From assembly GCA_951813325.1 (NCBI GenBank), contig OX638350.1, positions 62,001 to 126,000 on the forward strand: a DNA stretch of 64,000 nucleotides, read 5' to 3'. Each line of letters starts with the position of its first letter. Positions within the stretch are counted from its first letter, which is position 1. The notes beneath the pieces are model-generated. The model worked only from the letters and a program-made list of their open reading frames with translations. It did no database searches and was not told the origin of the DNA. The position numbers and the translations under genes were made by a program. Origin of the DNA: an uncultured Acidimicrobiales bacterium (GTDB lineage: Bacteria; Actinomycetota; Acidimicrobiia; Acidimicrobiales; Bin134). Of the stretch, positions 34,210-51,823 are shown one piece after another.

Positions 34210-34220
34210 GATTCTCCAAT

Positions 34221-35138
34221 ATGCTCGGACTCGCAGTGAGCGAGCGCATTCAAATCGTCGAAGTGGCCCCTCGGGACGGCTTGCAGGCCGACCCCGCCGA
34301 CCTCAGCACCGCGCAGAAGGTCGAGCTCATCGAGCGGCTGGTAGCCGCCGGCCACACTCGCATCGAGGCCACCAGCTTCGTCAGCCCCAAGGCAGTGCCC
34401 AAGATGGCCGACGGGGATGCGGTCATGGCCGGCGTGCCCCGGTCGAGCGGGGTGAGCTACAGCGCACTGGCCCTCAACCAACGAGGGGTTGAGCGGGCCA
34501 TCTCCGCCGGGGTCGACGAGGTTTGCGGGGTGGTAGTGGCCACCGAGGCGTTTTCCCAGGCCAACCAACGGGCCAGTGTGGCCGAGTCGGTGCAGCGCTG
34601 GCGCGACATCAGCGATGCCGCCCGGGTTTCTGGCATCAAGACCGCGGTCACTGTTTCTGCTGTGTGCGGATGTCCCTACGAGGGGCGGGTGGAAGCCCAG
34701 AGCGTGCTCGACATTGTGGCCCAATTGGCCGAGACCCGGCCCGACGAGTTGGCTCTGGCCGATACCATCGGGGCCGGGGTTCCCACCCAGGTGGCCGACC
34801 TGTTCGCGGGGGTCCGGGAGCAGGCTCCCGGCATTGCACTGCGAGGCCACTTCCACAACACCCGCAACACCGCTTTGGCCAACATCGCCGCGGCGATCGA
34901 CACCGGCGTGAGGGTGTTCGACTCCAGCCTCGGCGGGGTGGGGGGCTGTCCGTTCGCTCCCAAAGCCACCGGCAACGTCGCCACCGAAGACGTGGTGTAT
35001 CTGGTGCACGAGATGGGCTTCGACACCGGGCTGGATCTGGACGCGCTCATCGACACCACAGCCTGGCTGGAAGCCCAACTCGGCCACGGCGTGCCCAGCC
35101 TGGTGGCCAAGGCCGGCGGATTTCCGCAACCTCGCTGA
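34221..35138 (+). CDS. HMG-CoA lyase-family protein
   Basis: 305 residues of the DRE-TIM metallolyase family: 'EVAPRDGLQADPADLS' (catalytic Asp/Arg), 'VCGCPYEGRV', 'RGHFHNTRNTALANI' (metal HxH) and the mobile Cys loop 'GGVGGCPFAPKATGNVATED', all intact. It cleaves 3-hydroxy-3-methylglutaryl-CoA or a close 3-hydroxyacyl-CoA, giving acetyl-CoA-level products. The start may be ATG 34221 or GTG 34236; neither has a clear Shine-Dalgarno. It is convergent with the amidohydrolase operon. Confidence 0.88.
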   Translation: MLGLAVSERIQIVEVAPRDGLQADPADLSTAQKVELIERLVAAGHTRIEATSFVSPKAVPKMADGDAVMAGVPRSSGVSYSALALNQRGVERAISAGVDEVCGVVVATEAFSQANQRASVAESVQRWRDISDAARVSGIKTAVTVSAVCGCPYEGRVEAQSVLDIVAQLAETRPDELALADTIGAGVPTQVADLFAGVREQAPGIALRGHFHNTRNTALANIAAAIDTGVRVFDSSLGGVGGCPFAPKATGNVATEDVVYLVHEMGFDTGLDLDALIDTTAWLEAQLGHGVPSLVAKAGGFPQPR

Positions 35139-35164
35139 GCACCTCACAGCAGTGGCCGCCGCGC

Positions 35165-36625: not shown

Positions 36626-38028
36626 GGCTGCTTCCCATTGGGATCGAGCAGTGGAGCCAGCAATCCGGCAACGCACGGCGCCGCAGTCAGGCCGGACAAA
36701 TCATCGTGGATCTGGCTGGCGACGCTGTCGGCCACCAAACCGGCGGTGTTGTCGGCAAACTTGGTGGCCAACTCTTCATCGGATAGAGGTTGATCGGGTC
36801 CCCCCCGGTTGGCCAGCGCCTCTTCCACCAGGGTGTGGCCTGAGGTGGTGGTAACGGTCAGGCGGGAGGGAAGCTGGCAGGGATAGATGGCCATCAATCG
36901 GGGGTCGCCGACGACATCCACTCGGGCCATCAGGTCTCGCCGGGTTGGGTCGCAGGCCAACTCGTCGGTGAAGTCGGTCAAGCCGACCCCCAAGCCCCCG
37001 CCGCCGAGGATCCCGGCGGCCACGGTGTAGGGACCGCTGAACTGGGCGTGGTAGCCGGTCTCGGGTTTCCGCTTGATCTCGATGGGCTCGCCGATTGTGC
37101 GCACGGTGGGCGGGGCCACCTCCAGGGTGGCGGCGGCGATGTCGTCGGGGCCCACGCCCTTTGAGCGCAGGGCGATGGCGGCATCGATGCCGGTGTGGGT
37201 GAAGTGATTTGCCGGGTAGGGCTTGTAGAAGATGTTCTCAGCCTCCCATCGCTCTCCTAGGTCGGCGGTGACCGCCTCGAAGTCGGCCTGGTCTCCGAGA
37301 AAGGCTTGGAACAGCCCGAACCGGCCTTCAAGAGCCGTTGGCGGCCCGGTGATGCCCCGGGTCGCAAGCAGGGCCGCGGTGACCCCGGCTCGAGCGGCCC
37401 AGCCGCAGTGCACCCGCTTGACCGTGCCCCCGGCCCGATTGGCCTCGATGATCCCGCTGGACATGCTGCACGCGATGCCCATGGCGTGGGCGATTCCGTC
37501 GGCATCGGCGTCGAGCAGCCGAGCCGCGGCCGCGGCCGACCCCACCGCACCGCAGATCGAGGTGGCGTGCTGGCCCCGCTCGAAATACACCGATTGGCGG
37601 GCTCGGCTGTCGTAGCCGCCCATACCCAGCCGCACCGTGACTTCCAGTCCCACCGCCACGGCATCGATCAACGCCGTGCCGGAGGTCCCCTGCCATTCGG
37701 CCACGGCCAGTGAGGCGGGCACCACCGTGGCGCTGGGATGGAGGATGGAGGGCAGATGGGTGTCGTCGTAGTCCAGCGAATGGGCCAGCACGCCGTTGAC
37801 AAACGCAGCCTCTGGTGCAGACATGGCCCGGCCGCCGCCGATTGGAGTGGCCTGGGGGGCGGAGCACTGGTCGGCGGCGAACCCGATGACCGCCTGGGAG
37901 GTGTCCAGCGGGCTGGCCCGCACTGCTATCCCCACGATGTCGACAATGCGAGACGGAATCCCGGCCCGCACCGTGTCGGGAACCGGTCCGCCGGCCAGCG
38001 CGCTGAGCTGGGAGAGAATCGGCCTCAT
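36622..38028 (-). CDS. MmgE/PrpD-family protein
   Basis: 468 residues, full length: 'ALAGGPVPDTVRAGIPSRIV', 'FVNGVLAHSLDYDDTH', 'LHPSATVVPASLAVAEW', 'MSSGIIEANRAGGTVKRVH', 'HCGWAARAGVTAALL' and 'YKPYPANHFTHTGIDAA'. Family members are 2-methylcitrate dehydratase, cis-aconitate decarboxylase and related (de)hydratases of branched di- or tricarboxylates. 4-bp overlaps with both neighbours show tight coupling. It likely (de)hydrates a methylated dicarboxylate of this pathway. Confidence 0.88.
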   Translation of the reverse strand: MRPILSQLSALAGGPVPDTVRAGIPSRIVDIVGIAVRASPLDTSQAVIGFAADQCSAPQATPIGGGRAMSAPEAAFVNGVLAHSLDYDDTHLPSILHPSATVVPASLAVAEWQGTSGTALIDAVAVGLEVTVRLGMGGYDSRARQSVYFERGQHATSICGAVGSAAAAARLLDADADGIAHAMGIACSMSSGIIEANRAGGTVKRVHCGWAARAGVTAALLATRGITGPPTALEGRFGLFQAFLGDQADFEAVTADLGERWEAENIFYKPYPANHFTHTGIDAAIALRSKGVGPDDIAAATLEVAPPTVRTIGEPIEIKRKPETGYHAQFSGPYTVAAGILGGGGLGVGLTDFTDELACDPTRRDLMARVDVVGDPRLMAIYPCQLPSRLTVTTTSGHTLVEEALANRGGPDQPLSDEELATKFADNTAGLVADSVASQIHDDLSGLTAAPCVAGLLAPLLDPNGKQP

Positions 38029-38849
38029 GCCAGGGCCAACGGTCTGACGGGAGCGCCGGTGGCCCCGTAGATGTTCAGATGCGAGAGCACAAACACAAAC
38101 TCAAACACCTCGGCGGCGGCCAGGCCATCTAGGTCCATCGCCTCGATTATGTTGACGCCCCGCTCCACCAACAGCACCCGGTGGGCGGGCAGCAGGGCGT
38201 GACCCTGTCCGGCGGGTAGGCATTCGAACGCCAGCGTGTCGGCCCCCACCAGAGCCGCCCCCTGATCGGCCAGCCAGCGAGCCCCCGCTTCTCCCACGCC
38301 GGGAACGCCGGTCTCGACTCCCAGATACCGTTGGGGATCGTCGAAGTGGGTGCCCCACCCGCTGCGCACCAGCACCGCATCTCCCGCCTGGATCGGCGAT
38401 TCCTGACGGGCAGCGGCACCCTCCAACTCGGCGACATTGATCTCATCGCCCCCGTTGCAGGCGTCTGTTCCCAGTAGCCCGGGAATGTCCAATAGCACGC
38501 CTCGGCCCACAAACGGCGGAAGCTCATTGATGCCCAGCACGGCGAATCCGCCGCCGGCTTGGGCCTCGGCGGCATCCACTCCGCCGTAGAGCCGTCCTTG
38601 ATGACTGACATGGGCCAGGGCGTCGACATGGGTTCCCACGTGACAGCCGGTGGTCAGCAGGTCGGCGGCGGCCGACCCGCCATCGGGTCGTATCCGGTCA
38701 CCATGCAGCCGGTCCAGGCAGTGGTGAAACTGCGGGTGGTTGGGCGACTGGGCCATACCGTTCTGCATGGGTCGGCCCAAGTCGTAAACCGTGGCTTGGG
38801 CGACGAGATCGATCAGTGCCCCGGACGCATCGGCCCGACTGCCGATCAT
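38025..38849 (-). CDS. Cyclase-family (kynurenine-formamidase-like) metal hydrolase
   Basis: 274 residues. Metal motif 'HVGTHVDALAHVSHQGRLYG' (HxGTHxDxxxH), 'LLDIPGLLGTDAC', 'IQAGDAVLVRSGWGTHFDDP' and 'LVGADTLAFECLPAGQGH' are diagnostic of the putative-cyclase/KynB fold, a Zn or Mn amide or ester hydrolase. ATGA overlaps at both ends place it in the CoA transferase - cyclase - MmgE/PrpD - amidohydrolase operon. Substrate unknown. Confidence 0.87.
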   Translation of the reverse strand: MIGSRADASGALIDLVAQATVYDLGRPMQNGMAQSPNHPQFHHCLDRLHGDRIRPDGGSAAADLLTTGCHVGTHVDALAHVSHQGRLYGGVDAAEAQAGGGFAVLGINELPPFVGRGVLLDIPGLLGTDACNGGDEINVAELEGAAARQESPIQAGDAVLVRSGWGTHFDDPQRYLGVETGVPGVGEAGARWLADQGAALVGADTLAFECLPAGQGHALLPAHRVLLVERGVNIIEAMDLDGLAAAEVFEFVFVLSHLNIYGATGAPVRPLALA

Positions 38850-40036
38850 GCCACCACTCTTTTGGCTCGAAGATTGTCGATGCGCTCGACGCTCAACCCG
38901 GCTTCTTTCAGCACCTCGTCGGTGTCGGCCCCCAGGTCTCGGCCAGTGTGCCGGATGGCGCCCGGAGAAGACGACAGTGAGAACAAGACGTTCTGCATCC
39001 GAACCGGCCCCAGGTCGGGGTCGTCAACTGCCGTGATCGCCTCCCGAGCCTGCACCTGGGGATCGCCCGCGTATTGGGCCACGTCGTACACCGGGGCTAG
39101 TGCGACTTCGGCGGCGGCAAACGCTTCCATCACCTGGGCCAGCGGTCGATCGCCGATCCAGCACGACAAGGCGGCATCGATCTCATCAGCGTGCTCGGCT
39201 CGACCCGATCCGGTGGCGAACCAGGGTTCGGACACCAGATCACCCCGGCCAACCAGTTCCATCGTGCGGCGGGCCACCGCATCGGCGCTGCTCGACACCG
39301 CCACCCAGCAGCCGTCGGCGGTGAGGTAGGTGTTGCGGGGAGCGTTGTTGGACGATCGGTTGCCCGATCGCTGAGCGATGTGACCAGTCTGATCCCAGGT
39401 GACCACATGGGGACCGAGCGCCGCGGCCAGCGTCTCCAGGATCGACAGATCCACCACTTGGCCCTTGCCGGTGGCGTGGCGGTGGTGGACCGCCATCATC
39501 ACCGCAGCCACCCCGCTGACGCCGGCCACGCTGTCGGCCAAGCCGAATGGAGGCAGGGTCGGGGGCTGGTCGGCCTCGCCGGTCATGTGGGCGAAGCCGC
39601 TCATCGCCTCGATGAGCGTGCCGAATGCCGGCCTTGGGGCATACGGGCCGTTCTGGCCAAATCCGGTGACCCGGCACAAGATCAGGCCCGGATTGCGGCC
39701 CGACAGCACCTCCCATCCCAAGCCCCAGCGCTCAAGCGTGCCGGGCCGAAAATTCTCGATCACCACGTCGGCAGTGGATGCCAGTTCCAAGAACACCTCA
39801 GAGCCCTCGGGATGGCTCAAATCCAGGCCTACACAGCGCTTGTTGCGGGCCACCAGCTTCCACCAGAGTCCGTGTCCGTCCTTTTGCGCTCCGTGGCCCC
39901 GCAGGCTGTCACCGGTTCGGGGATGCTCGACTTTGACCACGTCGGCACCGAAATCTGCCATGATCTGGCCGATCAGCGGTCCGGCCAAAACGGTGGAGGC
40001 GTCGATGACCCGCAGATCGGTGAGGGGCCCACTCAT
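38846..40036 (-). CDS. Class III CoA transferase (CaiB/BaiF family), copy 2
   Basis: 396 residues from ATG 40036 (MSGPLTDLRVIDASTVLAGP). Motifs include 'MADFGADVVKVEHPRTGDSL', 'VVIENFRPGTLERWGLG', 'RVTGFGQNGPYAPRPAFG' and active-site Asp in 'GKGQVVDLSILETLA'. It is related to copy 1 but not a recent duplicate. First gene of the operon; the 33-bp operator at 40039-40071 begins 2 bp upstream of its start codon. Presumably it activates a dicarboxylate to its CoA ester. Confidence 0.92.
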   Translation of the reverse strand: MSGPLTDLRVIDASTVLAGPLIGQIMADFGADVVKVEHPRTGDSLRGHGAQKDGHGLWWKLVARNKRCVGLDLSHPEGSEVFLELASTADVVIENFRPGTLERWGLGWEVLSGRNPGLILCRVTGFGQNGPYAPRPAFGTLIEAMSGFAHMTGEADQPPTLPPFGLADSVAGVSGVAAVMMAVHHRHATGKGQVVDLSILETLAAALGPHVVTWDQTGHIAQRSGNRSSNNAPRNTYLTADGCWVAVSSSADAVARRTMELVGRGDLVSEPWFATGSGRAEHADEIDAALSCWIGDRPLAQVMEAFAAAEVALAPVYDVAQYAGDPQVQAREAITAVDDPDLGPVRMQNVLFSLSSSPGAIRHTGRDLGADTDEVLKEAGLSVERIDNLRAKRVVA

Positions 40037-40038
40037 GC

Positions 40039-40071
40039 GGAACGACGTTTCTCCCAGTGGAACATTGTCCG
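40039..40071. promoter_or_regulatory. Four-half-site operator, site A
   Basis: GGAAC-GAC-GTTTC-TCCCAGT-GGAAC-ATT-GTCCG: two inverted pairs of GGAAC-like half-sites, spacing N3-N7-N3. The same architecture occurs at 43461, 49995 and 61837. An additional GTTCC follows at 40076-40080. It lies between copy 2 of the CoA transferase and the IclR gene, consistent with autoregulation. Confidence 0.7.
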
Positions 40072-40144
40072 TAGTGTTCCCCAATTTGGCGGGGTCAAGC
40101 AACCGACGACAGGGAATTATGGGTCAAAACGCCCGGATCGCGGT

Positions 40145-40975: not shown

Positions 40976-42601
40976 GTGAGAGACCGCGTTCGAGTGGCCG
41001 CGGTGCAGTTCGCCACCGGGACCGACCTCGACGAGAACTTGGAGACTTGCCTGCGGGTGCTGGATGCGGCCGCCGCCGAAGGGGCCGAGCTGGTGGTGAT
41101 GCCCGAGTTCTGCAACCACCTCTCCGTGTACGACGACCAAGACCACTGCCGGTCGGTAGCGGTGTCGCTGGACGGCCCCTGGTTGGGGGCCCTGGCCCGG
41201 CGATCCGCAGAGCATGGGCTTTACGCCTCGCTGACGGTGACCGTGCCCCGACACGACGACCGGGTGACGGCCACCAATGTGCTGGTCGACCCCCGAGGCC
41301 GAGTGGCCGCCACCGCCGATAAGCAGATGCTGATGGGCAATGAGCGCGCCCATCTGAGCGCGGGCACCGAGGTCAGTCCACTGCCTGACACCGCATTCGG
41401 CCCCGTGGGCCTGTACTCGTGCATGGACGGTGTGACTTTCGAGGTACCTCGCACGTTTGCCGTGAGAGGAGCTCGCCTCCTGTTGAACAGCCTCAATTCG
41501 TTCGCCCTCGACGAGGCCAGGTTGCACATACCAGTGCGGGCGGTCGAGAACGGGGTATTCGTTGTGGCCGCCAACAAGGTCGGTCCACTGCTGCCCGCGC
41601 AACAGGTGCCGCAATTCAGCCAGGCGCTGGGTGTGCCTCCTGAGGCATTGAACGGTGCCGGGGAGAGCCAGGTGGTGGACCCCGACGGCACGGTGCTGGC
41701 CATGGCACCCCGCACCGGCGAAGCGGTGGTGGTCGCCGACCTAGACCTGTCCACGGTTATGCCAGACCGGCTTCGGGGTCGCCGGCCAGAGGTGTACGGA
41801 CCTCTGGCCCAGTCCCGCACCGACCGTCCGGACTCCGGACGAGTGCCCGAGGTGGTCGCCGGCTGCGTCCCCGGTGCCCGGGCGAATCCCGAGTTGGTCC
41901 ACAAGGCCATCGACGCCGGGGCCTCCCTGGTGGTGCTGCCCGAGTTGACACCGCCGCCGCCGAACATCCCTTCTGGTGTGCTGGTGGTGACCACCGCCCT
42001 GCGGGATGGCCAGCACCTCGGCCAGGTGTGGTCGGCCGACGGCGTTGTCCACGAGCAGGCCCAGGTCCATCACAGCGACCGCCACGCCGGTGCCAAAGAG
42101 TTGAGCTCCGAAGTGGGCTTGTATCCGACGCCGTTCGGCGACCTGGCGGTGATCGTGGGGGACGATCACCTCTACCCCGAGGTTTTCCGACTGGCGGCCA
42201 TCGCCGGGGCCCATCTGGTCGCAGTGTGCTGGCATCCTGAGCACCCCTGGGAGTGCGACCTTGCGCTGATAGAACGGGCTGCGGAGAATCGGATCAGCGT
42301 GGCGGCGTGCGGACCCCCTGGACCGCTGGCCGCCACCATGCTGCTCGATCCACCCGCCGATTCGCTGTGGAACCCCAATCGGTCGAGCCCCTACGACGGG
42401 ACCATCAACACTCCGATCACCCACCGGGTTGAGCCTGACGAAGGGCTGCTGATCGGTACCCTGCATCCCGGCCGGGCAGTCAACCGCGAGATCTCCAAAG
42501 ACACCGACCTAGTGGGCGGGCGCCCCTGGAAGGCCGCGACGGCGCTTGTCGCGCCCCCGACGCAGACTACGGCCGCGGGCGATCCCGCGGCACCCGATTG
42601 A
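40976..42601 (+). CDS. Tandem nitrilase-superfamily protein, second domain degenerate
   Basis: 541 residues. Domain 1 (1-260) keeps the Glu-Lys-Cys triad: 'ELVVMPEFCN', 'ATADKQMLMG' and 'GLYSCMDGVTFEVPR'. Domain 2 (290-500) repeats the fold ('ASLVVLPELTPPP', 'FGDLAVIVGDDHLYPEVFRL') but has Asp where Cys should be and no Lys, so it is probably structural or regulatory. It cleaves a non-peptide C-N bond (amide, carbamoyl or nitrile). It starts 10 bp after the IclR gene, so the two are probably co-transcribed. It overlaps the convergent lyase gene by 35 bp. Confidence 0.85.
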   Translation: MRDRVRVAAVQFATGTDLDENLETCLRVLDAAAAEGAELVVMPEFCNHLSVYDDQDHCRSVAVSLDGPWLGALARRSAEHGLYASLTVTVPRHDDRVTATNVLVDPRGRVAATADKQMLMGNERAHLSAGTEVSPLPDTAFGPVGLYSCMDGVTFEVPRTFAVRGARLLLNSLNSFALDEARLHIPVRAVENGVFVVAANKVGPLLPAQQVPQFSQALGVPPEALNGAGESQVVDPDGTVLAMAPRTGEAVVVADLDLSTVMPDRLRGRRPEVYGPLAQSRTDRPDSGRVPEVVAGCVPGARANPELVHKAIDAGASLVVLPELTPPPPNIPSGVLVVTTALRDGQHLGQVWSADGVVHEQAQVHHSDRHAGAKELSSEVGLYPTPFGDLAVIVGDDHLYPEVFRLAAIAGAHLVAVCWHPEHPWECDLALIERAAENRISVAACGPPGPLAATMLLDPPADSLWNPNRSSPYDGTINTPITHRVEPDEGLLIGTLHPGRAVNREISKDTDLVGGRPWKAATALVAPPTQTTAAGDPAAPD

Positions 42602-43397
42602 GCACTGATCTGGCCCAGCGCATCACCGCCTCGTCGATGAACTCCCCGTCGAGCACCGCGACCGCCCGACCGTCGGCCGTCGCTTCCTCGAAGGCGGCTA
42701 CCAGCCCCTCAGCCCGGGCGATCTCTTCATCCGATGGGGTGAAGGCCGCGTTCACCGCGGCCACTTGTTTGGGGTGGATCACCGACCGGCCGCCGAAGCC
42801 GTGGCGGCGAAGCGACTCGCTGGTGGCCACCAGCCCCGCGTCGTCGTCGAGGTTGGTGAACACCGGGCCACAGGGCGCTTCGAGTCCCTCTCCTGCCGAT
42901 GCCACCACCACCCGAGTGCGTATCGGCCACATCTCCAGGGCATCGGGTGAGGGCTCCATGCCCAAGTCGGCGGCCAGATCGGCTTCGCCCAAGGCCAGGC
43001 GCACCACTTCGGGCACCGCCGCGATCTCGTATATCTGAGCCACCCCTACCGCCGACTCGATGAGCGCCATCACCGGACAGCTGCCGAAGTCGGCCGAGCA
43101 GGCCGCCGCATCGGCCTTGGGCACCACCACCCCCGCAAAGCCCACTCCGTCGGAAACCAGTGACCGCACCAGTTCGGCGTCGTGATCCACCAGGTCGGGG
43201 CGGTTGTTGATCCGCACCCATGCCGGCACACCGGGGTTGGCCCGGAGCCATTGGCCCACCGCCTCACGGGCGGTTGCCTTGGCCGCTTCGGCCACCGCAT
43301 CCTCGAGATCGCAGATGACGGCGTCGGCCCCCGACTCCAGCGCCTTGTCGAAGCGGTCGGGACGATCTCCGGGGACGTAAAGCGTGGTGCGGCTCAT
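42567..43397 (-). CDS. CitE-like CoA-ester lyase
   Basis: 276 residues from ATG 43397, with GGGAGGAG upstream. HpcH/HpaI-CitE family: 'TTLYVPGDRPDRFDKALESG', 'AVICDLEDAV', 'WVRINNRPD', 'GVVVPKADA', 'VMALIESAVGVAQIYEIA', 'LALGEADLAADLGM' and 'GFGGRSVIHPKQVAAVNAAF'. Members cleave malyl-, citramalyl- or methylmalyl-CoA-type esters. It is divergent from the RCC-reductase-like operon across operator site B. Together with the CoA transferases it could finish breakdown of a methylated C4/C5 dicarboxylate. Confidence 0.9.
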   Translation of the reverse strand: MSRTTLYVPGDRPDRFDKALESGADAVICDLEDAVAEAAKATAREAVGQWLRANPGVPAWVRINNRPDLVDHDAELVRSLVSDGVGFAGVVVPKADAAACSADFGSCPVMALIESAVGVAQIYEIAAVPEVVRLALGEADLAADLGMEPSPDALEMWPIRTRVVVASAGEGLEAPCGPVFTNLDDDAGLVATSESLRRHGFGGRSVIHPKQVAAVNAAFTPSDEEIARAEGLVAAFEEATADGRAVAVLDGEFIDEAVMRWARSVLNRVPRDRPRP

Positions 43398-43422
43398 CGA
43401 ATTCTCGGCTCCTCCCGGTTGG

Positions 43423-43451
43423 TTGACACTGGTTTGGCTTGGCCCTACTGT
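43423..43451 (+). promoter_or_regulatory. Strong sigma-70-type promoter for the RCCR/Rieske operon
   Basis: TTGACA (43423-43428), exactly 17 bp, then TACTGT (43446-43451). The predicted start (about 43458) lies directly before operator site B, so a bound regulator would block transcription. Confidence 0.6.
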
Positions 43452-43460
43452 CAGACTAAC

Positions 43461-43493
43461 GAAACGTTGTTCCGCTAACCGGAACAGTGTGCC
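43461..43493. promoter_or_regulatory. Four-half-site operator, site B
   Basis: GAAAC-GTT-GTTCC-GCTAACC-GGAAC-AGT-GTGCC. The central TGTTCCG-N5-CGGAACA is a perfect 7-bp inverted repeat. It shares the N3-N7-N3 spacing of sites A, C and D and 24 of 31 aligned bases with site D. Located 21 bp before the RCC-reductase-like start. Confidence 0.75.
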
Positions 43494-43514
43494 GCTGACG
43501 ACACCGGAGCACCA

Positions 43515-44345
43515 ATGCGCGAGACGCTGAAGGGCGTCCAAGATATCTTTGACGAGCGGGGCCCGACAGACGCCACGGCCACGTTCAACCGGCTGTGGTC
43601 TATCACCGAAGAGCTTATGGCCAAGATCCAAGCCCGCTTCGAGTTGACCCGCGACCCCAGCACCGAAGATCTGGAGTCATACCGGGGCGAATCCGAGTAC
43701 CCCGCCGGGCGGCTGGCCGGCTATGCCGGCCCGGAAATCGACTGGCTCATCCACTCCTGGATAGGCAATCCCCCGCTGGGGTTCACCAACATGCACGTCA
43801 CCGCCTGGCTGGGCCCCCACATCGACGTGCCCCATCTGGGAATTGCGTGGGGGACGCTGCCCGATCTGTGGTTCTACATCGACTTCAACCCCCGCTCCGA
43901 TCTCATGCTCGACACCGATGCGCTCGACAAATACTGGGGCTCGCTCAACGAGGAGTTCTTGGACCTGCGGGCCGACGAAGGGCTCGCGCCGTTCACGTCC
44001 CGGGCGCTGTACGTCCGCCAGGCGCTGAGCGAGGTGGCCATCTGCTTCACCACCCCGGGCACCGTCTACGACGAGGGCCGGCTGAACCAGGTCAGCGAAC
44101 TGGCCCACCGGCGAGCAGACCAGTGGCTGGCGTGGGTGGACGAGGCTGAGCCGGTGGCGCTTGAGCACCGGGAGCAACTGGCCGCCGACGATCTGGCCCG
44201 GCGGCGTAACATCGCCGAGAGAGATCCGGCCAACATCATGGGCGTGCGCTTCTTCGGAGAGGAGATGACCGACCGTCTGGTGCGGGCCCTGTGGGGTGGC
44301 GACCGGGTATTGCCCCGACCTGCTGAGGGGGAGCTGGCATGTTAA
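43515..44345 (+). CDS. Red chlorophyll catabolite reductase-like protein
   Basis: 276 residues. Several segments align with plant RCC reductase (ACD2): 'EIDWLIHSWIGNPPLGFTNM', 'HVTAWLGPHIDVPHLGI', 'DLWFYIDFNPRSDLMLDTDA', the 'YVRQALSEVAI' strand, and near the C-terminus 'GVRFFGEEMTDRLVRAL', which matches the plant FG-x-E ending. RCCR belongs to the ferredoxin-dependent bilin reductase fold and reduces the linear tetrapyrrole made by PaO. No signal peptide. It overlaps the Rieske oxygenase start by 7 bp, so enzyme and presumed oxygenase are made together. The assignment rests on remembered family sequences. Confidence 0.72.
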   Translation: MRETLKGVQDIFDERGPTDATATFNRLWSITEELMAKIQARFELTRDPSTEDLESYRGESEYPAGRLAGYAGPEIDWLIHSWIGNPPLGFTNMHVTAWLGPHIDVPHLGIAWGTLPDLWFYIDFNPRSDLMLDTDALDKYWGSLNEEFLDLRADEGLAPFTSRALYVRQALSEVAICFTTPGTVYDEGRLNQVSELAHRRADQWLAWVDEAEPVALEHREQLAADDLARRRNIAERDPANIMGVRFFGEEMTDRLVRALWGGDRVLPRPAEGELAC

Positions 44346-45478
44346 TCAAGAACCAGTGGTACGCCGTGGAATTCGGTCAGTGGGTGTCCGACCAACCGGT
44401 GCTGGCCCGGGTCCACGGCCACGACTTGGTGCTGTGGCGCAGCCCCAACGGCACGGTCAATGCCCAGTCCGACCTGTGCGTTCACCGAGGCGGCTCATTA
44501 GCCGGCGGGTCGGTGGTGGGCGATTGCGTCCAGTGCCCCTACCACGGCTGGCGCTACGGGGCCGATGGGGCCTGTGTGGAGATACCGGCCAACCGCCCAG
44601 ACCTCCCCATTCCCAAGAAGGCCCGGATCGACACCTATCCCTGCATCGAGCGCTACGGCTTCGTGTGGGTGTTCTTGGGCGATCTGGCGCCCGAGCATCG
44701 GCCCCCGGTGCCAGAATTGGAAGGACTCGAGGAGCACATAGAGGCCAGGGCGGAGGGATACCGGGCGGTCATCGGCGAGTTCACCTGGCAGGCCAACTAC
44801 GACCGAGTGCTGGAGAACGCGGTGGACATCGCCCACACCCCATTCGTGCACTCCGGGTCGTTCGGCAACAAAGACCAGCCCGAGATCCAGGACTTCGACC
44901 TCGACGAAACCCGCGTCAACGGCCACCTGGCGTCGGTCACCGCCACCGTGGAGCTCGAACCACCCCGACCGTCAGGCCTTTGGCGGTTCATCTCCAAGAA
45001 GGACCGCCCCCCGGTGAGCACCTCCACCGGGTTCTACCCGCCCAATGTGTCGATGCTCATCGTCCGGCTGCCCATGGGCGAGATCCGCATCTTTACCGCC
45101 GCAGTGCCCCGCGACGAGCGCGTGACCGTTTCGAAGTTCTGCATGCTGCGCACGTTCTTCACCGGGGGCTGGGCCGACAAGAACTCCTACGAGCGCACCA
45201 TCAAGATCTTCTTGGAAGACCAGCCGACCGTTGAGGGCCAGCGCCCGGAGTTGCTGCCATTCGACCTGTCGGCCGAGCTCCACGTCAAGTCGGATTCCAT
45301 CCAACTGACCTACCGCCGCTGGCGCCAAGAGCAGATCGACAAGGGCTGGGGGCTCGAGACCCCCTCGGACGAGGAGGCCATGCGGGCCGCGGCGGTGATT
45401 CCCTCGCCCGGGCGCTCCAGCGACCCCGAACTGGCCAACGCCTGGGTGTTCCCCACCGTCGGCGAGGCCCGATCATGA
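44339..45478 (+). CDS. Rieske non-heme iron oxygenase, PaO/VanA-like
   Basis: 379 residues. Rieske [2Fe-2S] ligands C47-x-H49 and C66-x2-H69 ('CVHRGGSLAGG', 'CVQCPYHGWRYG'), then 'IPANRPDLPIPKKARIDTYP', a form common in cyanobacterial PaO-like oxygenases. The mononuclear iron site is seen in 'ENAVDIAHTPFVHSG' (H166, H171 with bridging Asp163). No reductase gene adjoins, so a general ferredoxin must supply electrons. Position between two bilin-reductase-fold candidates suggests macrocycle or bilin oxygenation, but aromatic demethylation cannot be excluded by sequence alone. It overlaps the next gene (ATGA). Confidence 0.85.
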   Translation: MLIKNQWYAVEFGQWVSDQPVLARVHGHDLVLWRSPNGTVNAQSDLCVHRGGSLAGGSVVGDCVQCPYHGWRYGADGACVEIPANRPDLPIPKKARIDTYPCIERYGFVWVFLGDLAPEHRPPVPELEGLEEHIEARAEGYRAVIGEFTWQANYDRVLENAVDIAHTPFVHSGSFGNKDQPEIQDFDLDETRVNGHLASVTATVELEPPRPSGLWRFISKKDRPPVSTSTGFYPPNVSMLIVRLPMGEIRIFTAAVPRDERVTVSKFCMLRTFFTGGWADKNSYERTIKIFLEDQPTVEGQRPELLPFDLSAELHVKSDSIQLTYRRWRQEQIDKGWGLETPSDEEAMRAAAVIPSPGRSSDPELANAWVFPTVGEARS

Positions 45479-46194
45479 GCCTGTCGGCTGATCTTTGCCT
45501 GGGCACAGTAGATGCCATCGCCGACCGCCTGGAGCTGGAGGAGACGGTAAACACCCCGCTGGCCTCAGCTATGGACGGCTCGCCGGTGGGCGCCCATCGG
45601 GTGCTGGCTCGCGACGGGGTAGCGACGCTGGTGTACGTGGGCATGACGGTCGAGGCGTTCGGGCTGGACAGCCACATGTGCTTCGCCTTCACGCCGGCGG
45701 CCAGCCCGGTGCCCCACTTCACCGTTGATTCGGTGCTGGCCGGACCGCACTACGCCTTCCACCTGGACTTGATCCCCCGACTCGACCCCGGCGCCAACCT
45801 GGCCTACATCGACCACTGCTACGGCCCTCTTACCGAGGTCCACGATGAGACTATGCAGATCGAAGGGCTCACCCCCGCCCACCTGTCGCCCCGCCAATGG
45901 CAGCTCATGTCAGCGTGGATGCTGGCTCACCGGGCCGACGAGAACGGTTTCCGGTCGGTGTTCGGTGCGGTGGCCGCCTACCGCGACCACTGGCTGGACC
46001 TGGTGGCCGACGGGGTGCCCCACGAGGCCATTGGCGATGCCACCGCAGAGCAGTTGGCCGATCGCGATGCCCGCAATCGAGCCGCCATCTTCAATCCCGA
46101 GGTCGACCCCGTGTGGGCCCGAGTAGACCAGCTGCTTGGCCCCGAGACGAGCGCCGCCATTCAGGCCAGTCTGAAGACCGCGGCCCGCTCCTGA
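45475..46194 (+). CDS. Second RCCR/bilin-reductase-fold candidate
   Basis: 239 residues. 'PHFTVDSVLAGPHYAFHLDL' and 'PRLDPGANLAYIDHCYGPL' resemble the central strand-loop-strand of the bilin reductase fold, and the C-terminal 'RDARNRAAIFNPEVDPVWAR' followed by LLGPETSAAI recalls the RCCR/FDBR ending. Similarity to its operon partner at 43515 is weak, so this is a distant paralogue at best. The start overlaps the Rieske stop by 4 bp. A reductase, isomerase or chaperone of the Rieske product are all possible. Confidence 0.5.
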   Translation: MSLSADLCLGTVDAIADRLELEETVNTPLASAMDGSPVGAHRVLARDGVATLVYVGMTVEAFGLDSHMCFAFTPAASPVPHFTVDSVLAGPHYAFHLDLIPRLDPGANLAYIDHCYGPLTEVHDETMQIEGLTPAHLSPRQWQLMSAWMLAHRADENGFRSVFGAVAAYRDHWLDLVADGVPHEAIGDATAEQLADRDARNRAAIFNPEVDPVWARVDQLLGPETSAAIQASLKTAARS

Positions 46195-46204
46195 GGAGAT
46201 TGAC

Positions 46205-47140
46205 ATGAGCCAAGAGTCAGAGTGGCAACAACGCATCACCGGTGAGTGGTACGGGTTGCCATCGGTGTTCGATGTCGAGGGAAACCACACTGGGTTCAAC
46301 AAGGTCAGCCGGGCCAGCGAGTTCGCCGACGGCAAGGTCACCTACTGGATGCAGTGCAACTTCATGAACACCGGCCCGCTGCGCAACCGGTTTGAGATCA
46401 AAGATTTCAAGTTCGGGGTAGATGACAGGGGCAACGACCGCATCTACCAGGGCCCCGACTTCTATGGCGCCGGCCATCCCTATGGCTCACTGGTGGACTC
46501 GCACTACTACTCGCCGGGGTGGCGGGCCGACCTGAACACCATGAATCAGATTCTGCCCGATGGGGTTACCCAGGTGTACTCGTCGCTGCTCTATGAGGGC
46601 CCCACCATCTTCTCGGTGTTCAACGGGGTGTACCTGAACGCCCACGACTACGACACCAATCCCGACACCAGGGCGTGGATCGACGCCCACATCGAGTCCG
46701 AGCGGGAGTTGGCCGCATGGCCCCACACCGTGCCCGATCGAACCGGGGGCGAATGGGCCGGTGAGTGCGAGGTGTTCGGCGCCGACCAGCAGCGCCGGGG
46801 CAGCGTGAGCGTGCGCCTGCGCCACGACCCCATCGACCTGGTGCGCACCACCCACACCCTGGAGCTCACCGGAGAGATCAACCACTCGCACACCTACATC
46901 CGCACCCGCTCCCACGGCAACCGCTACACCTACGACGGCCCCGATCTCTGGGGCAACGCCATCGCCTACGGCCGCGCCCTCTACACCTCCCAGCACCACG
47001 TCAGCGAGGCATTCAAAGTCAAAGGCCGGGAGTTCATCATCGACCGCGACTACACCCTGGCCGTGGCCTGGAAGCTCTACGACGGTGACCGCATGACCGA
47101 CATAGTCTTCGGCCCCCTGACCTTCACCCCCGACGCCTAG
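46205..47140 (+). CDS. Two-domain calycin-like protein (DUF3598-like)
   Basis: 311 residues made of two similar halves. Each opens with GEW (GEWYGLPSVFDVEGNHTG; GEWAGECEVFGADQQRRG) and has a YxGP turn (IYQGPDFYGAGHPYG; YTYDGPDLWGNAIAYG), with dense beta-strand patterning, as expected for tandem lipocalin/calycin barrels. DUF3598/CpcS-like calycins bind tetrapyrroles in cyanobacteria, which suits the context, but no catalytic residues can be named. Last gene of the RCCR-Rieske operon, with GAGG upstream. Convergent with 47137-47796. Confidence 0.6.
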   Translation: MSQESEWQQRITGEWYGLPSVFDVEGNHTGFNKVSRASEFADGKVTYWMQCNFMNTGPLRNRFEIKDFKFGVDDRGNDRIYQGPDFYGAGHPYGSLVDSHYYSPGWRADLNTMNQILPDGVTQVYSSLLYEGPTIFSVFNGVYLNAHDYDTNPDTRAWIDAHIESERELAAWPHTVPDRTGGEWAGECEVFGADQQRRGSVSVRLRHDPIDLVRTTHTLELTGEINHSHTYIRTRSHGNRYTYDGPDLWGNAIAYGRALYTSQHHVSEAFKVKGREFIIDRDYTLAVAWKLYDGDRMTDIVFGPLTFTPDA

Positions 47141-47796
47141 CCCACGGCCACTGATACTGAGCGGCTTCCATCTTCCACGTATTCGGTGAACTCGATGCTG
47201 GAGGCTCCTACCGGGTCGCGCATGGCCCAGAGGCGGCGGTGGTGCGATGGTGAGGGTTGGTCGGCGGCTACCAGCATGGGGCCTACGGCTCGGCGTAAGG
47301 GCCATTGATCGCCCGCCTTGGGTGGTGGTGCTGTCAGGTCGAGGCGGGGCTCCTCACCGGAGGATTCGGGGACAGCTACTCCCACGATGTCGGCCACCGA
47401 CCGGCCGGCCAGGGAGAAGAAACCGCCGGTGAGCTGGCGGTCGGGGGCCACTAGGACGGAGTAAGACTCGAACTCGTAGCCGAGGCGGGGCCAGAGTCCC
47501 TGGCCGGTGAGGGCGCCGGGCTGCCACAGGGTGCCGAAGCCCACAACATCGGGGCCGAGATAGCGACGTTGGGTCCCGTCCACCTCTAGCTCGAATACCC
47601 ACTCGCCCGAGAAAGCGGCCATCGGGTGACCGGCTAGTTGGGGCGATGGGTGGCACCGTTGGGTTACCAGCAGCCGGCCCTCTCCATCTGGCTCCACCAT
47701 CCGGCGTTGGGCCACCTCGCCGCGAAACGTGCCGTCTGGGTCGTAGACGTACTCGACAACCAGCCACGCACCGCCAAAGCGGTCGCTCTCGCTCAT
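47137..47796 (-). CDS. Calycin-like protein, paralogue
   Basis: 219 residues from ATG 47796, overlapping the preceding stop (ATGA). 'FGGAWLVVEYVYDPDGTFRG' and 'RRYLGPDVVGFGTLWQPG' repeat the GxW...DxxG and YxGPxxxG signatures of the 46205 protein; the second half is shorter and diverged. No signal peptide. Last gene of the four-gene minus-strand operon starting at operator site C. Function unknown; probably ligand binding or an associated enzyme of the same pathway. Confidence 0.6.
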   Translation of the reverse strand: MSESDRFGGAWLVVEYVYDPDGTFRGEVAQRRMVEPDGEGRLLVTQRCHPSPQLAGHPMAAFSGEWVFELEVDGTQRRYLGPDVVGFGTLWQPGALTGQGLWPRLGYEFESYSVLVAPDRQLTGGFFSLAGRSVADIVGVAVPESSGEEPRLDLTAPPPKAGDQWPLRRAVGPMLVAADQPSPSHHRRLWAMRDPVGASSIEFTEYVEDGSRSVSVAVG

Positions 47797-48695
47797 GCCG
47801 GATCGAAGGCCAAGGCCCCGTAGGCCGCTCCCAGGCGCTCTTCGCCCCGATACCAGATGTGGAGCACCGCCTTCATGCTGCCGTCCCGCGACACCACTTC
47901 GCGCCGCCACACTCGGAGCCCTCCTGAGAGGAGGTGGAGCTGGCCGCTGAAGCCCCGGCCGCCACTGAGGCTGCCGCTGCCCATCAGATCACCCTCCGGT
48001 GTCCACGCCGTCCAGCCGTCCGACAAAAGGGGGAACGACAGCCCCGATGAGTAGTCAGCCCCTGATAGTTCCACTTCCCAAGAGCCGTCTTTAACAGCAA
48101 CCACCTCCGCATAATCAGCTGCGCCGGCCGGTGTGCACTTGGCGTCGAGGCGGTGCAGCTGGCCCGACCAGCGGCCGGGTCGGAGCAACAAGAGCTCACC
48201 TCGGCCTGCGGTTGGGTCGTCTCGCAACACCTGGGGATCCATCTCCGCCACAGGGGGAGGCTCGGGGCCAGACGGGTCGATCTGACGCTGGTATTCCCCC
48301 ACCACCGTCCATTGGAGCCGATCGCCCCGGCTGAGCAGGGCCAGTGAGAGCTGGCGGGTGCCGTCGGGCAGCACCATCAAAAAGAACCGCTGCGAAAGTC
48401 CCAGGTCGGGCCAGTAGTTGTGGGCGGCGACCAGGCCGTCGCCCAGCGCCTCGGCATAGCCGATGTTAAGGGGCCCCTCGTAGGTGCGATGCGAGCCGTG
48501 ATCGGCAATGGTGTAGACCCCCGACAGGGAGAACGGCCCTTCGAACCCGACCTCCACCGTCACCCGTCCGGCCTGGTCATCGGCCTTCACCGATCGGGTG
48601 TCGCGCCCTAGGCCGGCAAAGCGGCCGTCGGCGTCATAGACCTCGGCCGCGCCGATCCATTCCCCAACTCCTTGGGAGAACGACCCTTTGCTCAC
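47793..48695 (-). CDS. Two-domain calycin-like protein, paralogue
   Basis: 300 residues from GTG 48695, overlapping the DUF3891 stop (GTGA). The N-terminal half has 'VGEWIGAAEVYDADGRFAGL' and 'HRTYEGPLNIGYAEALG' like the 46205 protein. The C-terminal half starts 'PGRWSGQLHRLDAKC' and is a second barrel. The family signature is shared across three genes here, indicating local expansion. No catalytic motif is recognised. Confidence 0.6.
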   Translation of the reverse strand: MSKGSFSQGVGEWIGAAEVYDADGRFAGLGRDTRSVKADDQAGRVTVEVGFEGPFSLSGVYTIADHGSHRTYEGPLNIGYAEALGDGLVAAHNYWPDLGLSQRFFLMVLPDGTRQLSLALLSRGDRLQWTVVGEYQRQIDPSGPEPPPVAEMDPQVLRDDPTAGRGELLLLRPGRWSGQLHRLDAKCTPAGAADYAEVVAVKDGSWEVELSGADYSSGLSFPLLSDGWTAWTPEGDLMGSGSLSGGRGFSGQLHLLSGGLRVWRREVVSRDGSMKAVLHIWYRGEERLGAAYGALAFDPA

Positions 48696-49510
48696 ATCCG
48701 GACCAGGCGCACTGTTTGGGTGTCCACCGGGGTGGCGGCCAGCACCGGGCCGAGGTCGGTACCGGGAGGCTGAGGAGCCAGATACCGGCCTTCGGTGGCC
48801 AGCTCAAGCCCGTCTTCGGCAAACGGGTATGGGTCCAGCCCGTAGACCCCTCCGGGACGCTCGACCACCGTGATGGTCACGTCGTCGCCTACCGCCCGTG
48901 GCACGTTGGGGAAGTCCGACTCTCCTCGCTCGTCCTCGGGAGCCAAGTGGAAGTACAGGGAGATGGTGTCGAAGAACTGGAGCTGCTTGTAGGCGTGGAA
49001 CAGGTACTCGTCGGTGGCGTGTTCGGGATCGTCGGCGGCCAACCGCTCCTTCAGCCGATGCTGGCGGTTTTCCTCGTTGCCCAGCATGGCTTCGACCTCG
49101 GGGCGCAGCTCGTCGGGGATCACGTCCAAGAAGATCTTGTCGCTCAACCCGTACCGCCCTCGATACAGGCCATAGGTGTGCATCGACGAGATAATGCCGC
49201 TGAACGGGTGATGGTCCTCATTGAACGCCGGCGATCCCGCCGATGTGGTCACAATCTGGGGCAGCGGTGTGGCGGTCAGGTTATAGGGAAGGCCGGTGTC
49301 GGGGTTCTGAGGGGCCTGGGCGTCGAGGGCGGTCCAGCCCTGGTCGTGGTGGTCGACGATGAACTGCATCGGCTCAGCTGGCTCCAACCCGTCGAACTCG
49401 TCGTTGCCGAAGTTGGCGGCCAGCGAACCGGCGAAGGCGGTGTGCTGGTGCATGGCGATCACGAAATGGGGGGCGTCGGATGCCCCGCCGGGGGCGCTCT
49501 GGACGATCAT
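48692..49510 (-). CDS. DUF3891-family protein
   Basis: 272 residues from ATG 49510 (ATGA overlap with the upstream gene). Features of DUF3891: 'IVDHHDQGWTALDAQAPQNP', 'SSMHTYGLYRGRYGLSD' and 'AYKQLQFFDTISLYFHLA', with conserved His/Asp residues that look like a buried HD-type helical metal site. Biochemical function is not known to me. Its place inside the calycin operon suggests a hydrolytic or metal-dependent step of the same pathway. Confidence 0.7.
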   Translation of the reverse strand: MIVQSAPGGASDAPHFVIAMHQHTAFAGSLAANFGNDEFDGLEPAEPMQFIVDHHDQGWTALDAQAPQNPDTGLPYNLTATPLPQIVTTSAGSPAFNEDHHPFSGIISSMHTYGLYRGRYGLSDKIFLDVIPDELRPEVEAMLGNEENRQHRLKERLAADDPEHATDEYLFHAYKQLQFFDTISLYFHLAPEDERGESDFPNVPRAVGDDVTITVVERPGGVYGLDPYPFAEDGLELATEGRYLAPQPPGTDLGPVLAATPVDTQTVRLVRM

Positions 49511-49965
49511 GGCCGCTGGACCCGGGTGAAGTCTTGAATCTGAAACAAGCTGGTGGCGCCGTCGCGCACCTTGTGGGTGATGATGCGGCGGGTGTCGGGG
49601 TCCAAGAAGTAGTGGTTGTTGTAGACGATGTTGTTGCTCACCCGGCTGTCGATGGTGAAGACGTAGTTGTACGGCGTGAGCTCGGCGCCTTCGAGGCTGA
49701 GCTGGTCGCTGGAGGCGAAGCACCGCTTGCCGTCCACCTGGATCGGGGTGTCGAAGATGGTCTCGCCCACGCCGTAGAGATTCTCAAAATGCTCATGGAG
49801 GTGCCAGGTGTTGTCGTCGAGCCAGTACACGTCCATGTGGACGGCGCTGGATTCTAGGAAATCGCCATGGAGGGTGAAGCTCTTGCACAACCCCTCCCAG
49901 TGGCCCATGAAGCACTGATACGGCCGGGGTGAGGCCGGCCCGTAGTTTCTGGTGTCGCTCACCAT
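49507..49965 (-). CDS. Single-domain calycin/DUF3598-like protein
   Basis: About 152 residues from ATG 49965 (MVSDTRNYGP). 'FMGHWEGLCKSFTLHGDFLE', 'NTWHLHEHFENLYGVGE' and 'NNHYFLDPDTRRIITHKVRD' give a single beta-barrel-like pattern. It is closest in style to cyanobacterial DUF3598 proteins. First gene of the operon; operator site C begins 30 bp upstream. The overlap with DUF3891 implies coupled translation. Confidence 0.6.
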   Translation of the reverse strand: MVSDTRNYGPASPRPYQCFMGHWEGLCKSFTLHGDFLESSAVHMDVYWLDDNTWHLHEHFENLYGVGETIFDTPIQVDGKRCFASSDQLSLEGAELTPYNYVFTIDSRVSNNIVYNNHYFLDPDTRRIITHKVRDGATSLFQIQDFTRVQRP

Positions 49966-49994
49966 CAGAATCGTAGAGTGTGCCAGTAGTGGAT

Positions 49995-50027
49995 GAAACC
50001 GTGTTCCTCTGAGCGGAACGGAGTTGT
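49995..50027. promoter_or_regulatory. Four-half-site operator, site C
   Basis: GAAAC-CGT-GTTCC-TCTGAGC-GGAAC-GGA-GTTGT, spacing N3-N7-N3 as in sites A, B and D. The central 15-mer is identical to 40152-40166. It lies between the divergent calycin operon and the chlorophyllase-like gene, ending 4 bp before the ATG of the latter. Confidence 0.75.
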
Positions 50028-50031
50028 GACA

Positions 50032-50991
50032 ATGATCGTCCGAGGGCTGCACTTCTCATTCGACGCCCAGGGAGATGCCGCGTTGGCCACGCTGTTCTAC
50101 CCCGGTGATGATCGTCGACTGGAAGAAGCCCGTCTGACCGGGCAAGTACCGGCGGCCGACACCGATGCTCCGTGGCCGGTGGTCGTCATCATGCCCGGCA
50201 TCAACGTGGTCCCTGACAGCTACCGATGGCTTGCCCATCGTTTGGTGGCCGACGGGCTATGCGTTGTGACCTATGCGGCCATCGGATCGCTGGGACCGGC
50301 GGGGCGTGGGATCACTCCTGGCATCGACCTGGCCGCCCTCGCCCCCGACACCATCGGCACCAGGCCGTCGTCCACCGCCCTCGGACCGCTGCTCGCCCAC
50401 CTGGCTGAGTTGGCCGCCGATGAGCACACCCCGGTGGCCGGGCACCTGGATTTGGGCCGGTTCGTCGTGGGGGGCCATTCGGCGGGGGGCACGGCGGCAT
50501 TGCACAACAGCGAGCCGGAGTGGGTGTCGGGCTTGCAGGCGGTGTTCGCCTACGCCGCCCACACCATGATTGCCACTGCATTGGGCCATGACGAGGCCGC
50601 GGTGGCATCCATCCCGGCCAATGTGCCGATGATGCTGCTGGGCGGCGCCGACGACGGAGTGATCGCGGCCAGCCGCGACCGCTATCGCACCGACGACGGC
50701 ACCCACGATCCCGTTCGCCGAACCTTTGCCGAGGCCATTCATCGCCAGCAAGGAGATTCTTGGCTGGTCGAGTTGGCCGGTGCCGGACACTTCGCCATCT
50801 GCGATCTGGTGGACACCACCAGCGGCCGCTCCTTTCTGGAGCCCGATTCTCCGAAGACCGACCCGGCCATCCGAGAGTTGCTCGGCGACCTCATCGCCGC
50901 GTTCATCTCTGCCAGCCTGGGCCGGCCGAGTGGGTCCAGCGTGGAGCAATTGGTCGATCACCCATCGATCAGGCACTGGGATAGACGCTGA
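50032..50991 (+). CDS. Chlorophyllase-like alpha/beta hydrolase
   Basis: 319 residues from ATG 50032. Core features: 'WPVVVIMPGINVVPDSYRWL', 'GLCVVTYAAIG', nucleophile elbow 'FVVGGHSAGGTAAL' (S150), acid loop 'MLLGGADDGVI', and His in 'LAGAGHFAICD'. The layout (PGxN...YxxLAxxLA.xGxxVV, GHSxGG) recalls plant/cyanobacterial chlorophyllases, which remove phytol. It is transcribed from operator site C together with the NOL-like SDR. A general esterase is the alternative. Confidence 0.65.
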   Translation: MIVRGLHFSFDAQGDAALATLFYPGDDRRLEEARLTGQVPAADTDAPWPVVVIMPGINVVPDSYRWLAHRLVADGLCVVTYAAIGSLGPAGRGITPGIDLAALAPDTIGTRPSSTALGPLLAHLAELAADEHTPVAGHLDLGRFVVGGHSAGGTAALHNSEPEWVSGLQAVFAYAAHTMIATALGHDEAAVASIPANVPMMLLGGADDGVIAASRDRYRTDDGTHDPVRRTFAEAIHRQQGDSWLVELAGAGHFAICDLVDTTSGRSFLEPDSPKTDPAIRELLGDLIAAFISASLGRPSGSSVEQLVDHPSIRHWDRR

Positions 50992-51016: not shown

Positions 51017-51823
51017 GTGACCAAGCGCATCGTCATCACCGGCAGCACCAGGGGTATCGGCAACGGGCTGGCCCGCGAGTTCCTGAAGCGCCGGTGCCAA
51101 GTGGCCGTGAGCGGTCGATCACGCGACCAAGTCGACGAGGTGGTGGCTGAGCTGGGCCAGTACTACGGCAAGTCCAAGGTGTGCGGCGCGGCCTGCGACA
51201 TCACCGACCCCGGACAGCTCCAGGGACTGTGGGACCGCGCGGCCAACGCCTTCGGCGGCGTCGACGTGTGGATCAACAATGCGGGAATCGGCATCACCCG
51301 CCAACCGCTGTGGGAACAGCACGACCACGAACTGGCTGCGCTGGTCGACACCAACCTCACCGGTGCGCTGTTGGCCAGCAAGACAGCCATTGCCAACATG
51401 GTGCGCCAAGGCCAGGGCCAGGTGTGGAACACCGAGGGATTCGGTTCCGACGGCGCCACCCAGCCCGGCATGGTGGCCTACGGGGCCACCAAACGGGCGG
51501 TGCGCTATTTGCAAAAAGCCCTGCGCAAAGACACCGCCGACACCCCCGTGCAGGTGTGCACCGTGTCGCCGGGCATTGTCGTGACCGACCTGCTCACCGG
51601 CGACTACGACCTCACATCTGAGCAATGGGAGAAGTCCAAGAAGATCTTCAACATCCTGGGCGACCACGTGCATACCGTCACCCCCTGGCTGGCCGACCAC
51701 ATCCTGGCCGCCGACAAGTCAGGGGCTCGGGTGGTGTGGCTGACCCGGCGAAAGGCCTTCGCCCGGTTCATGACCGCCTCGTTCCGGAGGCGCGATCTAT
51801 TCGCCCAGGTCGAGGGGGCGTGA
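51017..51823 (+). CDS. SDR resembling chlorophyll(ide) b reductase (NOL/NYC1)
   Basis: 268 residues with a strong AGGAGG upstream of GTG 51017. Cofactor motif GSTRGIG (9-15), NNAG (87-90), and catalytic S144, Y155, K159. Distinctive for the NOL/NYC1 branch: 'VDVWINNAGIG', 'GFGSDGATQPGMVAYGATKR', 'VSPGIVVTDLLTGDYD' and a C-terminal 'VVWLTRRKAFARFM' matching the plant 'RFLTGIKAYTKIF' region. NOL/NYC1 reduce the 7-formyl of chlorophyll b, letting the b form enter the pheophorbide a pathway. It overlaps the convergent transporter gene by 27 bp. Confidence 0.7.
   Translation: MTKRIVITGSTRGIGNGLAREFLKRRCQVAVSGRSRDQVDEVVAELGQYYGKSKVCGAACDITDPGQLQGLWDRAANAFGGVDVWINNAGIGITRQPLWEQHDHELAALVDTNLTGALLASKTAIANMVRQGQGQVWNTEGFGSDGATQPGMVAYGATKRAVRYLQKALRKDTADTPVQVCTVSPGIVVTDLLTGDYDLTSEQWEKSKKIFNILGDHVHTVTPWLADHILAADKSGARVVWLTRRKAFARFMTASFRRRDLFAQVEGA

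Follow-up and report, generated by a model that had tools for sequence, protein, structure and literature searches.

The locus and its neighbourhood

The window, a stretch of 64,000 nucleotides that forms positions 62001-126000 of an uncultured Acidimicrobiales genome assembled as a single contig (3.59 Mb, 95.86% complete), carries a Rieske monooxygenase gene between two genes termed here A and B, with further genes on either side (Table 1). Gene A ends at 44345 and overlaps the start of the Rieske gene at 44339 by 7 bases, and the stop of the Rieske gene and the start of gene B have the bases ATGA in common, an overlap of 4 bases that is read directly from the sequence. The translational coupling of B to the Rieske gene proposed in the first-pass annotation is borne out by this overlap in the window, but it is not universal: among 51 loci with a Rieske gene on the same strand, a scripted count gave the 4-base overlap in 14 and put the Rieske gene and B no more than 100 bases apart in 40, the overlap count having mis-measured the rows L035 and L037, whose identical genes in L011 and L014 have the 4-base overlap. 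The reading frame of B is likewise genuine, since relatives are encoded at 65 loci in named genomes (tblastn), which places its coding well above chance; a 44-row alignment has 29 invariant columns.

Table 1. Genes and gene blocks at and around the A-Rieske-B locus, with coordinates in the window and recurrence among 65 loci that encode B
Feature	Coordinates	Strand	Length	Basis	Recurrence
Upstream catabolic block	32367-40102	mostly -; HMGL-like gene +		Pfam, NCBIfam	
Nit, nitrilase-type carbon-nitrogen hydrolase, two-domain	40976-42601	+	541 aa	Pfam CN_hydrolase 1.1e-42	
CitE/RipC-type C-C lyase	42567-43631	-		NCBIfam RipC 3.4e-48 (below cut-off), Pfam HpcH_HpaI	25/65
Gene A, RCC_reductase family protein, first RCCR/FDBR fold	43515-44345	+	276 aa	Pfam, profile, AF2, VIA	
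Rieske monooxygenase, VanA_C type	44339-45478	+	379 aa	Pfam Rieske 3e-20, VanA_C 2.5e-26	
Gene B, divergent RCCR/FDBR-fold protein	45475-46194	+	239 aa	AF2, Foldseek, VIA, profile matches	65 loci
Gene C, conserved protein	46205-47140	+	311 aa		49/65
Genes D, E, F (DUF3891), G	47140-50052	-		beside operon in Acidimicrobiia	each 17-19/65
DUF3891 protein (F)	48692-49723	-		1.7e-31	adjoins operon in 19/65
Alpha/beta hydrolase	49993-50991	+			relatives in 42/65
SDR oxidoreductase	51017-51823	+		Pfam adh_short 3e-40	44/65
Acyl-CoA-dehydrogenase-like flavoprotein	58353-59645	-		Pfam; near B in proteobacterial loci	13/65

Gene B is sporadic within its order, as a single-sequence search at E<=0.001 found it in 20 of 397 genomes, and a phylum-wide profile search found it in at least 3 of 396. 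Most of the nearest named relatives belong to Acidimicrobiia, and the named genera with relatives of B include Streptomyces, Mumia, Parahaliea, Litorivivens and Nonomuraea; plasmid records gave no match to A or B. Among the 65 loci, which include many short contigs, gene A is present in 54 (53 when the L078 open reading frame spanning both Nit and A is counted as Nit), the Rieske gene in 53, both in 50 and the nitrilase in 46-47 (46 at E<=1e-30), and two loci show none of A, the Rieske gene, gene C and the nitrilase. Of the 50 that have A as well as the Rieske gene, 46 keep the order A-Rieske-B on one strand, the exceptions being L064, L078, L081 and L096, and the arrangement is kept across phyla. 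Actinomycete loci place the alpha/beta hydrolase between A and the Rieske gene, and in several Gammaproteobacteria thousands of bases separate B from A. Eleven loci have no gene A on their contig stretch; nine of these 11 genomes encode an A-family gene elsewhere, a figure that leaves out one genome whose match (1.8e-10) is gene B itself. The Pfam family PF06405 occurs in 12 of 298 order-level genomes, all 12 of them among the B-positive genomes of the single-sequence search.

The remaining neighbours are of several kinds. Gene C gave no match to a Pfam family and no significant PDB sequence, and its assignment to a known lipocalin-type family found no support in these searches. Genes C and E (47796-48695, minus strand) are homologous, with best cross-hits of 5e-13 and 6e-16, and neither fits a Pfam family; D weakly cross-hits E. 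The CitE/RipC-type lyase gene is likely to span about 42567-43400, the listed frame beginning at a far upstream TTG. Of 25 members of the alpha/beta hydrolase family, 18 have a weak match to Pfam PETase and 13 to Chlorophyllase at E<=0.01, and the best solved relatives in the PDB are PET hydrolases and cutinases rather than chlorophyllases, so that an identification as chlorophyllase is only suggestive. The upstream block encodes an isochorismatase-type hydrolase, two CoA-transferases III, an HMGL-like lyase, a hydantoinase/allantoinase-like hydrolase, an MmgE/PrpD protein and a cyclase; it looks like a set for cyclic-imide or ureide-type degradation and may belong to the pathway of B, its members recurring in a scattered manner (isochorismatase in 10, HMGL in 7 and the CoA-transferases in 12 and 4 of the 65 loci). 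Two aldehyde dehydrogenases, an acyl-CoA-dehydrogenase-like flavoprotein and FAD monooxygenases lie nearby in proteobacterial loci. None of the operon genes scanned was recognised as encoding a ferredoxin.

Fold and ancestry of the A and B proteins

On its own, the B sequence of the window has no match in Pfam (no family at E<=1), NCBIfam or the PDB. It is unmatched by PF06405 (RCC_reductase) and PF05996 (Fe_bilin_red), whose curated cut-offs it does not reach, and among its relatives 15 of 44 match the former (best 3.6e-4) and 7 of 44 the latter (best 8.2e-5) at E<=0.01; these are the sole Pfam families that single members of the 44 match at that threshold. When an 18-sequence profile of B was compared with the PDB, only entries for Arabidopsis red chlorophyll catabolite (RCC) reductase appeared up to E=10, at E 0.0012-0.0014, and a 44-sequence profile matched RCCR at 4e-4, the phytochromobilin synthase HY2 at 0.0019 and PebA at 0.24, with only RCCR and HY2 below 0.01 and unrelated PDB proteins beginning at E 0.66.

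The AlphaFold2 model of B (pLDDT 95.4, pTM 0.92) retrieved RCCR as the top Foldseek match in the PDB at 8.5e-11, ranks 1-43 being RCCR or FDBR structures throughout, ranks 44-45 a motor subunit of Chlamydomonas Ycf2/FtsHi and the next match coproporphyrinogen oxidase (CPOX) at 0.02. VIA-align Z scores were 23.2 for PebB, 22.8 for both PebA and HY2, 22.6 for RCCR and about 20-22 for PcyA. B thus has the alpha-beta-alpha sandwich of the RCCR/FDBR proteins with high confidence. The first-pass annotation had taken B for a possible second, distant bilin-reductase fold with an RCCR/FDBR-like C-terminus, to be rejected if modelling returned an unrelated fold; the AlphaFold and Foldseek comparison returned the FDBR/RCCR fold, and the profile aligns a C-terminal DP motif of B with those of HY2 and PebA. 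A coproporphyrinogen-oxidase-like enzyme is hardly credible for B, the fold being common to CPOX but the Z of 10.7-16.7 falling far below the 20-23 for FDBR and RCCR structures, which are also the only ones matched by the sequence profiles. As a separate observation, the Chlamydomonas Ycf2/Orf2971-FtsHi motor subunit (PDB 8xqw_H, 8xks_P) itself has the FDBR fold, with Z 19-20.

The protein encoded by gene A belongs to the same superfamily more openly, scoring 50.3 bits against the PF06405 cut-off of 24.9; its profile matches RCCR at E 3.2e-21, and its AlphaFold2 model (pLDDT 93.9) aligns with RCCR at a VIA Z of 23.4 and 25% identity. The earlier proposal that two folds of the bilin-reductase type flank an oxygenase therefore holds for the window and for the 46 loci with the conserved order. 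In an hhalign comparison A and B matched with a probability of 98.9% (E 3.3e-17, 221 columns, 24% identity), whereas B against its unrelated neighbours, gene C and the alpha/beta hydrolase, reached only 0.1-0.2%, and a single-sequence search with A retrieved the B protein of Yinghuangia soli at 1.2e-12. A tree of 100 rows puts the A-family and B rows on two sides of one branch with a support of 100/100, and the clades on either side each include Actinomycetota, Pseudomonadota and Myxococcota, from which it follows that the A/B split predates their spread. B is almost certainly a protein of the RCCR/FDBR-superfamily fold and an ancient paralogue of A.

Three further observations concern the tree and its sequences. 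A third RCCR-family clade with a support of 100/100 occurs in proteobacterial genomes (L096:8121-8885 on the minus strand, L118, L119, L121 and L122); it represents the A-family genes of two genomes without A at the locus, G404 and G405, the former having an additional match at 5.1e-65 outside the tree placement. Locus L050 lies on a contig that bears the label Rhodospirillaceae MAG ARS27; its A and B both group within Acidimicrobiia, and the label is probably wrong. In Actinomadura sp. J1-007 (L078:2323-4857) a nitrilase and an RCCR-like A occupy one frame of 845 aa, which is either a fusion or an effect of assembly or frame.

Candidate acids, the oxygenase and a proposed substrate

B carries acids in both the regions where RCCR and FDBR proteins have them, the central strand and the C-terminal DP region. 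D85 lies on the central strand and is Asp in 63 of the 65 loci, and D211 lies ahead of the last helices and is Asp in 62, the remainder being gaps. In the profile alignment, the residue opposite D85 is the Glu of the PNFVVEL strand in AtRCCR and an Asn in HY2; opposite D211 stands the DP motif of both HY2 and PebA. The working acids of AtRCCR we take to be Glu154 and Asp291, numbers obtained here from positions in the aligned chain after a shift of 43. Against AtRCCR, D211 aligns two residues beyond the Asp that pairs with D237 of A, and this offset makes the pairing loose. In A, the C-terminal D237 is kept in 53 of 54 loci, and the site of the AtRCCR Glu is occupied by Ala (A111), also in 53 of 54; that B has both acids and A is without the N-terminal one suggests that B rather than A carries the fuller catalytic set. 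Critical residues of PcyA are Glu76, His88 and Asp105, as given in the accessible part of PMC10151467, and D85 of B may correspond to D105.

The Rieske protein carries both metal-binding motifs, CxH-C..H at residue 47 and N..D..H....H at residue 160, and in Pfam it matches Rieske, VanA_C and, weakly, KshA_C but nothing else. Its closest solved relatives are SxtDIOX, SxtT and NdmA. Proteins of the PaO family carry a C-terminal CxxC motif; in the window protein the sole CxxC, at residue 63, lies within the Rieske motif, and the PaO domain is absent at E<=0.01 from all 23 Rieske relatives. Membership of the PaO family is therefore rejected, both the domain and the C-terminal CxxC being missing.

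We propose, with a probability of roughly 0.5, that B works as an RCCR/FDBR paralogue of A in a bacterial catabolic operon that acts on a chlorophyll/pheophorbide-type or phyllobilin-type tetrapyrrole. The proposal joins what was computed (the fold, the A-B homology, the conservation of the operon and the retained acids) with a substrate, a reductase activity, a reaction order and an electron donor that we infer. The pigment would first be trimmed by an esterase, and the Rieske monooxygenase would open the macrocycle or oxidise the opened chain. A and B could then reduce a red or blue open-chain product in proton-coupled one-electron steps with electrons from a ferredoxin-like donor, D85 and D211 of B acting as proton donors or binding the pyrrole nitrogens through their carboxylates. 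Formyl, amide and imide pieces might finally be removed by aldehyde dehydrogenases, the nitrilase, imide/amide hydrolases, CoA-transferases and C-C lyases and passed to central metabolism; the nitrilase, CoA-transferases, RipC/CitE-like lyase, HMGL, hydantoinase-like, PrpD and isochorismatase genes can be read as catabolic. Such a sequence, from pigment opening through reduction to hydrolysis of the formyl, amide and imide products, would be coherent but is unproven. Counting against the proposal are the VanA_C rather than PaO type of the Rieske protein, the Ala of A at the Glu site, the proximity of the hydrolase to PET hydrolases and cutinases, the lack of a recognised ferredoxin gene and the unmatched state of window B when taken alone.

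A rival reading is a re-purposed FDBR fold, with A, the Rieske protein and B degrading or building an alkaloid- or purine-like N-heterocycle other than a tetrapyrrole, whose ring the nitrilase and amidohydrolases open. The relatedness of the Rieske protein to NdmA, a methylxanthine demethylase, and to saxitoxin Rieske enzymes fits such a role, as do the nitrilase, isochorismatase and hydantoinase-like hydrolases close by and the distance of B from all characterised FDBRs. It is nonetheless unlikely: all structures of known substrate among the Foldseek and VIA fold matches act on tetrapyrroles, two independent paralogues of the fold are retained side by side, and B keeps both pocket acids. A little less probable again is that B is not a reductase and instead pairs with A in a heterodimer, in a binding or scaffold role in which it carries the pigment between the Rieske protein and A. 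The tight adjacency of A, the Rieske gene and B and the presence of the same fold within a larger complex in the Chlamydomonas Ycf2-FtsHi motor would accord with a scaffold, but it is B in which both acid positions are invariant and A in which the N-terminal one is lost, and the two genes stand far apart in several Gammaproteobacteria.

Ordinary bilin biosynthesis, in which A and B would be FDBRs making a pigment or chromophore from heme-derived biliverdin, is improbable. The fold is that of PcyA, PebA and HY2, and heterotrophs with pre-PcyA FDBRs and a heme oxygenase are on record in the available text of PMC10151467; against this, the nearly complete host genome has no match to the canonical heme oxygenase family PF01126, the one such family searched, and the neighbours of B are catabolic. 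Fe_bilin_red likewise has no match in the host genome, and the absence of both families makes it likelier that the operon's oxygenase opens the pigment, or that the cell takes the pigment up already open, than that a biliverdin route is used.

Relation to plant and cyanobacterial systems

Plant AtRCCR (PDB 2zxk, 3aga, 3agb) resembles B in fold, profile similarity and the C-terminal acid, and the pathway of AtRCCR, like the B operon, sets a Rieske oxygenase alongside an RCCR-type protein. B differs from AtRCCR in being bacterial and operonic, in having Asp at the position of Glu154, and in sharing about 14-19% identity with it by structural alignment. With the FDBRs PebA, PebB, PcyA and HY2, B has in common the fold (Z 20-23), the DP motif and an acidic residue on the central strand, whereas B alone lies outside Pfam Fe_bilin_red. 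RCCRs form the outgroup to the FDBRs, and pre-PcyA clusters contain heme oxygenase and globins, according to the portion of PMC10151467 at hand; the B loci lack the heme oxygenase and globin neighbours reported there, and neither 'Rieske' nor 'Acidimicrob' is mentioned in that portion.

The part of PMC2716323 that was available describes RCCR-like genes from Nostoc and from Anabaena, among them a side-by-side pair in N. punctiforme. This pair, Npun_R3277 and Npun_R3279, is like A and B in that two RCCR-family genes lie close together in a bacterium, but its members are described as highly similar and possibly a duplication. A and B, with a Rieske gene between them, are ancient paralogues of about 24% identity. 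RCCR is cofactor-free and driven by ferredoxin, and the plant PaO/phyllobilin pathway shares with the operon the logic of a hydrolase, a Rieske oxygenase and RCCR, as far as the accessible sections of PMC4950323 describe it; the Rieske protein of the operon comes from another subfamily. The phyllobilin pathway is described for land plants in the available part of PMC6775998. The further catabolic genes in the operon suggest full degradation and not the storage found in plants. It is possible, though we advance it tentatively, that the operon is a bacterial counterpart of the PaO/phyllobilin pathway, independently built from a VanA-type Rieske protein and two RCCR-fold reductases, which opens, reduces and hydrolyses chlorophyll or phyllobilins on the way into central metabolism and has been scattered by gene transfer among marine and soil bacteria, including Actinomycetota, Gammaproteobacteria and Myxococcota.

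In the literature searched, whose coverage excludes many journals and all preprints, neither the A-Rieske-B operon nor a bacterial gene set for the opening and degradation of chlorophyll is reported. Within that literature both the divergent clade formed by B and the A-Rieske-B operon are new, bacterial RCCR-family proteins being already known. Very large amounts of chlorophyll are turned over yearly, and the recurring A-Rieske-B arrangement hints at an undescribed bacterial route for the breakdown of chlorophyll-like pigments. The key fold of the plant pathway is here duplicated beside an oxygenase in named and cultured organisms, which makes the question testable, and the operon offers a large set of bacterial outgroup sequences for tracing how plant RCCR and the bilin reductases arose.
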